45,699 nt of DNA from contig NZ_SSWX01000004.1 of the NCBI RefSeq assembly GCF_004803635.1, positions 179,641 to 225,339 on the forward strand, in the 5' to 3' direction. Each line of letters opens with the position of its first letter. The first letter of the stretch is position 1. A program made the position numbers and the translations under genes. This document shows positions 15,654 through 26,811 of the stretch, piece by piece. The notes beneath the pieces were generated by a model. That model was given only the letters and a program-made list of their open reading frames with translations, was not told the DNA's origin and did no database searches. The stretch comes from Lampropedia aestuarii (GTDB taxonomy: Bacteria; Pseudomonadota; Gammaproteobacteria; Burkholderiales; Burkholderiaceae_C).

Positions 15654-16283
15654 TTACCAACGTTTGCCTGTGCGCTTTTCCAGCAAAGGCTTAACCCGTG
15701 CAGAGATGGCCTCGCGTGCACGAAAAATGCGAGATCGCACAGTGCCGATTGGACAATCCATGGCTTCAGCAATCGCCTCATAACTGAGGCCATCGATCTC
15801 ACGCAATGTAACGGCTTGCCTTAAATCCTCAGGCAAATCTTCCATGGCCGCATTGACGGCCTGCGCCACTTCTTTGGCTGCTAATACTGTTTCGGGTGTT
15901 TCCTCTGAAGTAAGTTCCATTAAATTTGTAGAATTTTCGTCATCGTCATCCCGACTCCGCAGTGCACTTTCCGAAATAGTCGGATTGCGCTTCATGTCGC
16001 TCAGCGTCTTCTTCGCGGTGTTGACTGCAATCCGATATAGCCATGTATAGAACTGCGCGTCGCCACGAAATTGGTGCAGAGCCCGATAAGCACGGATAAA
16101 GGTTTCCTGTGCAATGTCTTCGACTATGTCGCTATCGCGCACCATGCGCCCAATCAAACGTTCGATTCGCCGTTGGTATTTGACCACCAACAGCTCAAAC
16201 GCTCTTTGTTCACCCGCCAAAGTACGCTCTACAAGACGCAAATCGCTTTGATCGTCCGGATTTGCCTGAGTTGTATCTGTCAT
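15654..16283 (-). CDS. rpoE: RNA polymerase sigma factor RpoE (AlgU-type ECF sigma)
   Basis: A 209-residue group IV sigma factor. Region 2 includes AFELLVVKYQRRIERLIGRMV and DIAQETFIRAYRALHQFRG. Region 4 includes LPEDLRQAVTLREIDGLSYEAIAEAMDCPIGTVRSRIFRAR. This is the envelope-stress sigma factor. The ATG at 16283 is chosen because the longer frame has a low-quality extension. The anti-sigma gene follows. Upstream there is a 286-base gap with a possible autoregulatory promoter at 16505-16532. Confidence 0.93.
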   Translation of the reverse strand: MTDTTQANPDDQSDLRLVERTLAGEQRAFELLVVKYQRRIERLIGRMVRDSDIVEDIAQETFIRAYRALHQFRGDAQFYTWLYRIAVNTAKKTLSDMKRNPTISESALRSRDDDDENSTNLMELTSEETPETVLAAKEVAQAVNAAMEDLPEDLRQAVTLREIDGLSYEAIAEAMDCPIGTVRSRIFRAREAISARVKPLLEKRTGKRW

Positions 16284-16504
16284 GCGAAATATCGTTGTTG
16301 TTGTAAGCAGCTCGCTACACCCACCACACATGGATGTGCACCACTGGCCAATGCTTTATTGGAATTCAAAAAGATCTGTCAGCTCAGGCTGATGCATCAA
16401 CTGAGAGGTACTTTACACAAGTTCATGCTTTGGTCTGACAGCAGCCTTGGGCGATTGGCTTTCAGTCCAGCAGCAAAGAATACGTGGAATTTGCCCTAAC
16501 AGTG

Positions 16505-23963: not shown

Positions 23964-25031
23964 TTAGTCAAACAAGTCTGTCGCTTTTGACTGCGGCGGC
24001 ATCAAACCAAAATGCCGATAGGCTGCTGCCGTGGCAATGCGCCCGCGTGGTGTACGCTGCAAAAAGCCTTGCTGAATCAAATAGGGCTCGATCACGTCTT
24101 CGATCGTATCGCGCTCCTCACCAATGCTGGCAGCGACGTTGTCCAAGCCGACCGGGCCACCGTCAAAACGGTGCAACACTGCCTCCAACAATTTGCGGTC
24201 CATGACATCAAAACCGACAGGATCTACATCCAATAGCGCCAGTGCTTTTTGTGCCATCTGCAGCGTAATGCGGCCATCGCCCTTGACATCCGCATAGTCC
24301 CTGATGCGGCGCAACAAGCGATTGGCAATACGCGGCGTGCCGCGTGAGCGCTTGGCCACTTCAAGGCTGGCATCGGCATCAATGGGCGCCGCCAACAAGC
24401 CCGCACTGCGCGTCACAATCAATGCCAGCTCTTCAGGCGAATAAAACTCCAGCCGCGCGACAATGCCGAAACGGTCGCGCAGCGGGTTGGTCAGCATGCC
24501 GGCACGGGTGGTCGCGCCCACCAAGGTAAAGGGCTGCAAATCGAGTTTGATCGAACGCGCTGCAGGCCCTTCACCGATCATGATGTCGATCTGGTAATCC
24601 TCCAGCGCCGGATACAGAATCTCCTCGACCACCGGCGACAAGCGGTGGATCTCATCGATAAACAACACATCGTTGCGCTCCAGATTGGTGAGCAAGGCTG
24701 CCAAATCACGCGGCTTCTCGAGCACCGGACCGCTGGTTTGGCGCAGGTTCACGCCCAACTCGGTGGCAACAATATGCGAGAGCGTTGTTTTGCCAAGGCC
24801 TGGCGGGCCAAACAGCAATACATGGTCAAGCGCCTCGCCGCGCTTGCGCGCCGCGCCAATAAAGATCTCCAACTGCTCCCTGGCCTTGGCCTGCCCGACA
24901 TATTCTTGCAGGGCTTTGGGGCGCAGCGCCCGCTCCAACGCCTCTTCTCTTGACGAGGTGGCATCCGCGCTCATCACGCGCGGTGGCGGTGCTGGCACAT
25001 CAGTTGCCCAGCTATCGGTATGAATGCTCAT
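23964..25031 (-). CDS. ruvB: Holliday junction branch migration helicase RuvB
   Basis: A 355-residue AAA+ motor. Walker A is GPPGLGKTT (75-83), Walker B is LFIDEIHRL (123-131), and sensor/arginine regions [15 protein letters not shown] and [13 protein letters not shown] are present, with the C-terminal winged helix. It works with RuvA and RuvC, which are not in this window. The ATG at 25031 gives MSIHTDSW; the longer frame adds 13 unlikely residues. About 180 bases separate it from the terminator of the candidate small RNA upstream, so it probably has its own promoter. Confidence 0.96.
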
Positions 25032-25214
25032 GCAATTGGCAAAGAGAAGAACGCGCTCGCTCACACGCAAATCAAGGGTAAATCATAGCGCCCCACGCTA
25101 CACAGTCAGAGCGCCACTCTCAGCGGGGCATTTTGCCACGCGATCATCCGCTGCGTTGAACAGACGAGCAAGATCCAAGATATAAGGGTCTGTGCAGCGC
25201 CTTCTCTAGGGCAC

Positions 25215-25246
25215 AAAAAAAACGCGCTATCGACACCGATGCGCGC
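25215..25246 (-). terminator. Intrinsic terminator of the candidate small RNA
   Basis: On the minus strand CGCGCATCG, a GTGT loop and CGATAGCGCG form a 9-bp stem with one bulged A, followed by eight T (25215-25222). It is one of the strongest intrinsic terminators in the window. It is about 380 bases beyond metK, so it more likely ends a separate transcript. Confidence 0.8.
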
Positions 25247-25389
25247 AGGATGAGAAGCAAAAAGAAAAGGCTGCGAGGCTACCTAGGGTGAAGATAGAGA
25301 GTGAGGGAGGAGAAGCACCCAAGGAGTCGTCAATCAGGCATGGCCTAAAAGCCTCGCAACCGAAAATTCATGTATTTCTCAAATACAGT
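25215..25389 (-). ncRNA. Candidate small RNA between metK and ruvB
   Basis: A non-coding unit on the minus strand with a promoter-like pattern, internal structure and a terminator. From a start near 25389 it would have: a 5' hairpin TGTATTT-GAG-AAATACA; a 12-bp stem (25350-25361 with 25269-25280, one G-U pair); inside it a small AGGC/GCCT hairpin (25336-25346) and a GGGTG/CACCC stem (25286-25290 with 25316-25320) closing a 25-base loop that is 23/25 pyrimidine and includes UCUCCUCCCU; then U-rich sequence and a terminator. The loop is complementary to Shine-Dalgarno sequences. I recognise no known RNA family. No ORF overlaps it. Length is about 175 bases. Confidence 0.6.
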
Positions 25390-25392
25390 GGG

Positions 25393-25420
25393 TATGACAG
25401 CCATGCATCCCAAAAGTTCA
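25393..25420 (-). promoter_or_regulatory. Candidate sigma-E promoter of the small RNA
   Basis: TGAACTT, exactly 16 bases, then TCATA on the minus strand: a full GAACTT -35 core and the conserved TC of a sigma-E -10. The -35 overlaps an inverted repeat AAAAGTT-CACC-AACTTTT (plus strand, 25412-25429), which could be an operator or a remnant hairpin. Confidence 0.45.
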
Positions 25421-25623: not shown

Positions 25624-26811
25624 TCAGTCCTTCAAGCCTGCCGCAGCACGCAACAACTGCGCTTTGTCTGTCGCCTCCCAAGTGAATTCAGGCTCGTCAC
25701 GGCCGAAGTGGCCATAGGCGGCTGTTTTCTCATAGATCGGACGGCGCAAATCCAGCATCTCAATGATGCCGCGTGGACGCAAATCAAAATGCTGCTGCAC
25801 CAATTGTGCAATTTGCTCGTCAGGAATCACGCCCGTGCCTTCGGTATAGACAGTGATGTTGATCGGCTTGGCCACACCAATGGCGTAAGAGAGCTGAATC
25901 TGCGCTTGTCTGGCCAGGCCAGCAGCCACAATGTTCTTGGCCACATAACGCGCTGCGTATGCCGCAGAGCGGTCCACTTTGGTTGGGTCCTTACCACTGA
26001 AAGCACCGCCGCCGTGCGGGCAAGCGCCACCATAGGTATCAACAATGATTTTTCGCCCTGTCAGACCGGCATCGCCTTGCGGCCCGCCAATCACAAAACG
26101 GCCAGTCGGGTTCACCAAATACTTGGTGTTTTGCAGCCATTCTTTTGGCAATACCGGCTTGATGATCTCTTCAACCACTGCCTCAATGAAGCTGGACTTG
26201 AGTTTGGTCGCGGATTCGCTTTGGTCAGGGCTGTGTTGCGTGGACAGCACCACCGTGTCCACGCTGTGGGGTTTGCCGTCCACGTAGCGCAAGGTCACTT
26301 GGCTTTTGGCATCAGGACGTAAAAATGGCAACCGTCCATCACGGCGCAATTGGCTTTGGCGTTCGACCAAGCGGTGCGCGTAATAGATCGCAGCAGGCAT
26401 CAATTCCGGGGTTTCATCGCAGGCATAGCCAAACATCAAACCCTGATCGCCCGCGCCAATATTGAGCTCGTCGTCACTGGCTCGGTCAACGCCTTGGGCA
26501 ATTTCCTGGCTTTGCTTGTCATAGGCCACCAACACCGCACAGCCTTTGTAGTCGATACCGTACTCGGTATTGTCGTAACCAATGCGCTTGATGGTGTCAC
26601 GCGCAACTTGGATATAGTCCACCGTGCCGCCGGAGGTGATCTCGCCGGCCAAAACGACCAAACCCGTATTTGTTAAAGTTTCTGCCGCAACGCGGCTCAT
26701 GGGGTCCTGGCGAAGCAAGGCATCTAAAATAGCGTCCGAGATCTGGTCGGCCACCTTGTCTGGATGCCCCTCAGAAACGGATTCCGAAGTGAATAAATAA
26801 TCGTTAGCCAC
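25624..26811 (-). CDS. metK: S-adenosylmethionine synthetase MetK
   Basis: A 395-residue enzyme making SAM from methionine and ATP. Seen: [13 protein letters not shown] (H16), [26 protein letters not shown] and [16 protein letters not shown], all diagnostic. The start codon is GTG at 26811, with a strong AAGGAG about ten bases upstream. A complementary arm upstream can pair with this ribosome site. Two lipid A acyltransferase genes are divergent from it. Confidence 0.97.

Follow-up and report, generated by a model that had tools for sequence, protein, structure and literature searches.

MicA and RybB are the sigma-E small RNAs (sRNAs) of enterobacteria, and the Rhodobacter sRNAs CcsR1-4 carry CUCCUCCC in their loops. 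Control by an envelope-stress sigma factor, with targets regulated after transcription, is described for the enterobacterial sigma-E sRNAs (PMC1804206) and for Pseudomonas ErsA, which depends on sigma-22 (PMC7565897), in the portions of these papers that are available. CcsR1-4 are stress-sigma-controlled sRNAs of the photo-oxidative response (PMC7074977, PMC8307010); as far as the accessible text describes them, they share a transcript with ccaF1, and RNase E releases them from its 3′ UTR. In Bordetella, CT_433 and CT_521 are Hfq-dependent, C/T-rich sRNAs whose RIL-seq targets share a Shine-Dalgarno (SD)-like motif, according to the available sections of that study (PMC12235514), and CT_433/S17 is related to Rfam family RF02278.

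The window analyzed here, 45,699 nt of Lampropedia aestuarii DNA, encodes on its minus strand at about 25388 to 25215 a structured RNA with covarying stems. The RNA lies between metK (25624 to 26811) and ruvB (23964 to 25070), both also on the minus strand and named from NCBIfam, and all parts given below are on that strand. The predicted sRNA is ∼174 nt long (25215 to 25388), its start placed from the promoter and its end from a T run. An earlier note on this DNA had proposed a sigma-E-controlled sRNA with an anti-SD loop at this position, and several of its parts are present as claimed: the promoter pattern, consisting of TGAACTT at −35 (25414 to 25420; the commonest form in relatives is GGAACTT), a 16-nt spacer, and TCATA at −10 (25393 to 25397); a 25-nt loop with 23 pyrimidines (CUUCUCCUCCCUCACUCUCUAUCUU, 25291 to 25315) and the anti-SD core CUCCUCC; and an intrinsic terminator hairpin with eight T (25215 to 25246, T run 25222 to 25215). 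A U-rich tract 3′ of the closing stem (25258 to 25268) may be an Hfq site or a first terminator. A sigma-70-like TTGACA-16-TAAAAT scoring 11 of 12 also lies farther upstream on the same strand (25531 to 25504) and could add a longer transcript.

The sRNA folds at −56.7 kcal/mol compared with −42.7 ± 3.9 in 200 dinucleotide shuffles (z = −3.57), none of which was as stable. Its minimum-energy fold contains a 12-bp closing stem (5′ arm 25350 to 25361, 3′ arm 25269 to 25280) around two inner hairpins, the first at 25334 to 25348 and the second, which presents the pyrimidine loop, at 25282 to 25324; covariation backs the closing stem and the second hairpin. This is the stem drawn in the earlier note, although its innermost (12th) pair is unsupported, being formed by just 7 of the 97 distinct sequences. 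The 5′ hairpin, TGTATTT-GAG-AAATACA (25371 to 25387), likewise exists in the window, but it folds weakly by itself (26 of 200 shuffles are equally stable) and is not conserved: among five relatives, two have nothing in this region (L002, L008), one almost nothing (L005), and two other hairpins (L003, L007).

Conservation was seen in two alignments. With a 221-base query, blastn found matches in 11 of 60 genomes, our own counted, and GCTTCTCCTCCCTC is identical in all 11 loci; when these were aligned with MAFFT, which is not fitted to structure, 10 of 22 pairs had changed on both sides. A larger alignment (A2) of 98 loci with 97 distinct sequences was fitted to our covariance model R1; its 60 added loci were hand-picked, about one per genus, from the listed R1 matches, leaving out weaker and unlisted ones. 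In A2, double-change cells number 307 compared with 53.7 ± 13.4 in shuffles and 9 to 46 with partners slid, 92.9% of cells are paired compared with 38 to 49% with partners slid, and some double change occurs in all 22 modelled pairs. These counts lean toward the structure because A2 was fitted to R1, and the MAFFT result is therefore the safer witness; the two alignments agree. The covariation check that had been called for on the closing stem thus shows a stem that covaries, with its innermost pair unsupported, and the proposal of an sRNA gene is supported by the covariation and by the matches among relatives. The promoter pattern alone is not rare; it is this conservation that makes the finding significant.

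The RNA family is largely confined to the Comamonadaceae-type family. R1 matched 197 of 299 genomes of that family (182 of the 267 of good quality), spanning 102 of its 141 genera, with one match per genome among the matches listed; of 250 genomes drawn from the whole order, it matched six, all from the same family. With E allowed up to 0.1, a broader model, R2, matched 17 of 399 genomes. Eleven of these belong to the same family, which is represented by 12 genomes among those listed; of the remaining six, G442 alone is convincing (E = 2.8e-11). One genome with the full RNA (G250) also carries a second, partial match (L452; G250:C39:2942-2985, 26.4 bits) that is a copy of the loop hairpin and matches without the closing stem. 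An exact pattern run over named-species genomes gave 98 stretches, with names known for the 80 listed. Listed genera include Acidovorax, Paracidovorax, Comamonas, Delftia, Lampropedia, Corticibacter, Vandammella, Allofranklinella, Simplicispira, Diaphorobacter, Alicycliphilus, and Giesbergeria, among others. All but one of these 80 listed loci match R2 (79), including one record labelled Pantoea and one labelled Gammaproteobacteria; the locus without a match (L162, Thermogemmatispora) was taken as a chance match to the pattern. A search of a plasmid collection for the RNA gave no match.

Comparison with described RNAs yielded likeness of kind rather than a shared family. The check for a known element proposed in the earlier note found no Rfam family at gathering score at the RNA in the window, and in 20 related loci only a tRNA matched, nothing at the RNA. 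A permissive Rfam search at the locus, with E up to 5, gave nothing convincing: RF02278 (Betaproteobacteria toxic sRNA/S17) was rejected as the identity, having no match there, as was the alphaproteobacterial suhB/mmgR family (RF00519), whose weak match over the terminator and part of the U/C-rich stretch reached 16 bits (E = 1.4) against a gathering score of 41. An RF02278 match over the cut-off does occur in our own genome on another contig (C75:87160-87224). R2 in turn scores weakly on RF02278 loci, 20.6 bits at best, and the alignment at one of them (L106) covers a terminator-like hairpin and not the loop. Some RF02278 matches elsewhere lie within ∼2 kb of Porin_4 genes (G012:C1:4040039-4041705, G013:C1:3179926-3181877, G011:C8:217136-218889).

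The RNA described here resembles Bordetella CT_433/S17 and CT_521 in being betaproteobacterial, with a C/T-rich conserved segment complementary to SD-like motifs, as those RNAs are portrayed in the available text (PMC12235514, PMC11722255); for CT_521, the likeness rests on description and not on sequence. It differs from S17, which, in the accessible account, uses a sigma-A promoter, whereas the present sRNA has an ECF-type site. With CcsR1-4, likened by description from partial texts, it would share stress-sigma control, but those RNAs come from the ccaF1 3′ UTR. With MicA, RybB, and ErsA, it would share envelope-stress sigma control and posttranscriptional targets; unlike them, it exposes an anti-SD loop as its seed, has no Rfam match, and shows no significant porin preference. 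A literature search for the motif strings found no bacterial sRNA paper, as judged by titles and the beginnings of abstracts in a collection whose coverage excludes most subscription journals. Since homology to the named families was either not found or not assignable, we regard this as a new RNA family whose functional kind is already known.

Across the family, the region upstream of the RNA carries a conserved promoter-like site. We scored GGAACTT-N15-18-TCTRA (maximum 12) in the stretch 40 to 115 nt before the core of the 98 loci. Scores of at least 10 were reached in 59 of 98 loci compared with none of the 98 downstream and one of the 98 reverse-complement controls, and GGAACTT occurs exactly in 47 of 98 loci and in none of either set of 98 controls. 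A looser −35 pattern is found in 82 of 98 loci (controls, 7 and 15 of 98), and 16 of 98 have no −35-like element in this stretch. When the best site anywhere in 200 nt was taken, 64 of 98 loci scored at least 10, five of them, including the window's own, outside the expected stretch. The promoter site in the window scores 9, a level that the two control sets attain in 4 and 19 of 98 cases, so that taken by itself this site is weak evidence, and the family as a whole carries more weight. Likewise, GAACTT-N15-17-TCNNA has one match in the window (0.64 expected) and 35 in the whole genome compared with 69 for a reversed control; there is no enrichment, and the bare pattern therefore proves nothing.

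The surroundings of these genomic matches point toward a sigma-E-like factor. We inspected 30 of the 35 places and, in a split made after looking, separated those with G or T before GAACTT from those with A or C: leaving the sRNA aside, 6 of 12 in the former group lie at most ∼240 bases upstream of lptA, dsbB, rpoH, lolA, rlpA (our name for the gene of a lipoprotein with a lytic-transglycolase domain), and dsbA, while 1 of 17 in the latter adjoins a periplasmic-type (rotamase) gene. Judged by the enterobacterial regulon, these six genes form a sigma-E-like set. The window also encodes RpoE, at 15654 to 16331 (TIGR02939 over cut-off), 9 kb from the sRNA; the segment 12891 to 16331 holds rpoE together with a gene for a Do-family (DegP/HtrA-type) protease. 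We surveyed 30 rpoE loci, three of which run off a contig end and may be wrongly placed. In the 15 from the Comamonadaceae-type family, the 420 bases examined contain no site scoring at least 10, and autoregulation of rpoE there was rejected; of the 15 from the order's other families, 4 are preceded by a similar site, TGAACTT or GGAACTT-N16/17-TCTnT (L259, L261, L266, L267). An ECF/sigma-E-type promoter thus appears to precede the sRNA, and motif sharing suggests RpoE as its sigma factor. Of the sigma-E control claimed earlier, the conserved promoter type stands, but the sigma factor is an assignment by motif, and the family's own rpoE has no good site.

No part of the RNA varies less than the pyrimidine loop, in agreement with the anti-SD loop of the earlier note: CUCCUCC is present in 96 of 98 loops, and pyrimidine content is at least 85% in all 98. 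An unpaired, conserved CCUCC-type seed, the mark of anti-SD trans-acting sRNAs, is found in all 98 loops within stems that covary, and a loop core that hardly changes while the stem sequences vary is the pattern expected of a seed. Target predictions are less distinct. Among 321 sampled gene starts, 47 have at least six contiguous bases complementary to the loop (reversed-loop control, 32) and 8 have at least seven (control, 11), so complementarity is not clearly above the control; nor do the 10 porin starts of our genome pair significantly better than the 321 genes (P = 0.10). The earlier note had named lemA and an OmpA-like lipoprotein as targets, and AGGAGAA does precede both starts, but since pairing at gene starts is not clearly better than in the control, these two pairings have no special standing. 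Near-full-length complements of the loop occur at 35 places in eight genomes, eight of them the sRNA itself; none of the 30 inspected, which include those eight, was judged convincing at a gene start. These weak results for gene starts, porins, and single targets make a broad, weak effect likelier than one dedicated target. A dissimilar RNA-like element in a genome of another family (G680; L449:1501-1613) has CUCUCCUCCCUCCCUCC in its loop, a long enclosing stem, and a U run, and lies near open frames resembling an aminotransferase and a malic enzyme; it is a possible case of convergence.

The position between metK and ruvB, correctly given for the window in the earlier note, is local and lineage specific. 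Among nine loci of the same genus, metK adjoins the RNA in four and ruvB in two. The commonest neighborhood over the 98 loci is instead an oxidative/lipid operon, with an amine-oxidase-like gene downstream on the same strand in 44 and DUF1365 in 43; glutathione peroxidase lies upstream in 38. PurB is downstream in 36 other loci, and 18 show neither PurB nor amine oxidase within the 1.5 to 2 kb examined. The annotation of one such region (L293) lists amine oxidase, CMAS, chalcone-isomerase-like, MFS_2, and short-chain dehydrogenase genes, and that of another (L296) DUF1365, DUF3833, and a B12-binding MerR regulator. The RpoE regulon of the Rhodobacter sphaeroides singlet-oxygen response includes RSP_1087-1091 and cfaS, and the amine-oxidase/DUF1365 gene set resembles these members by description, not by sequence, as they appear in the available part of the source (PMC7074977).

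We consider it probable that the locus encodes a free-standing sRNA of ∼170 nt, under an RpoE-type ECF sigma factor, that acts in trans via its anti-SD loop. An ECF sigma factor, most likely RpoE (sigma-E), would transcribe it from GGAACTT-N16/17-TCnnn when the cell meets envelope or oxidative stress; the covarying stems would hold the 21- to 30-nt pyrimidine loop open, and the CUCCUCC core would pair with the SD sequences of many mRNAs and lower their translation. Hfq probably acts on the U-rich tail, in keeping with the U-rich tract seen there. Where the RNA stands directly before the amine-oxidase gene, a cis role is possible, and the RNA could be a 5′ leader, an attenuator or sensor, of the amine-oxidase/DUF1365/cyclopropane-synthase operon, its other copies being relics. 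The amine-oxidase gene downstream on the same strand in 44 of 98 loci, its estimated start ∼12 to 130 nt after the RNA core, favors such a leader, as does the outgroup G442, of another family, where the same scaffold, without CUCCUCC in its loop, is flanked by glutathione peroxidase and amine oxidase. We nevertheless think it unlikely, given that no amine oxidase was found beside the RNA in 54 of 98 loci, the window's group among them, and that these keep the loop and stems. Six or more T in the nine bases 3′ of the stem occur in 65 of 98 loci; a second, separate intrinsic terminator is present in 26 of 98 (2.2 in shuffles), including three loci that lie before the operon (L067, L089, L099), which again speaks against a leader. 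Still less can be said for reading the element as a chance hairpin or as the 3′ end of the metK mRNA: it does lie downstream of metK on the same strand, but conservation refutes this reading, the covarying RNA being kept in the five of nine same-genus loci where metK was not found within 1.5 kb, and we give it next to no weight.

The trans-acting reading leaves both the role of the loop and the sigma factor to be weighed. A loop that served as a decoy or sponge for a protein or other RNAs, rather than as antisense to SD sites, would fit the lack of clear complementarity at gene starts and of any dedicated target; we hold it to be quite improbable, as the most constant part, CCUCC in all 98 loops, is precisely the anti-SD core, and the C/T-rich sRNAs of Bordetella have SD-like target motifs in the portion of the report available (PMC12235514). 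That the same sRNA is driven by a sigma factor other than RpoE, or by sigma-70 with an activator, is a possibility of some substance, though not our expectation; it overlaps the favored explanation in all but the sigma factor. TTAC recurs at −24 to −26 (27 occurrences in 82 sequences upstream of A2 loci) and, less often, ∼10 bp farther upstream of the −35 element, resembling the direct repeat of a response regulator; its fixed distance suggests an activator site. The window also has TTGACA-16-TAAAAT, and the family's rpoE has no such site of its own. GGAACTT-N16/17-TCTA was rejected as a wide regulon in three relatives, where it is almost private to the sRNA (three of six places). On the other side, the motif is of ECF type and resembles the site before rpoE in 4 of 15 other-family loci, and a DUF3619-linked ECF factor, suggested by one site in our genome, was rejected, since no site of its own is conserved across 30 loci.

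Returning to the free-standing sRNA, its origin may lie in the operon that so often follows it: the RNA would have begun as a leader of the amine-oxidase operon and become independent later. Quite tentatively, we suggest that a photo-oxidative lipid operon had this RNA as its leader, a state that the outgroup G442, whose loop lacks the anti-SD core, would still display; that in an ancestor of the Comamonadaceae the leader acquired a loop able to block ribosome sites and turned into a free global brake on translation, linking sigma-E to singlet-oxygen defence; and that, among Acidovorax, Comamonas, and Lampropedia relatives, it was retained after the operon had gone from its neighborhood.

Comamonadaceae occur widely in soil, in water, and in waste treatment, and our literature search, with most subscription journals outside its coverage, found no described sigma-E sRNA for them. 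The RNA reported here is present in about two-thirds of the family genomes searched with R1 and comes with a covariance model and a promoter that can be used at once. The two main settings in which it occurs make it a case for studying how a leader may become a trans-acting regulator, and the way in which Comamonadaceae cut translation under envelope stress becomes directly testable.
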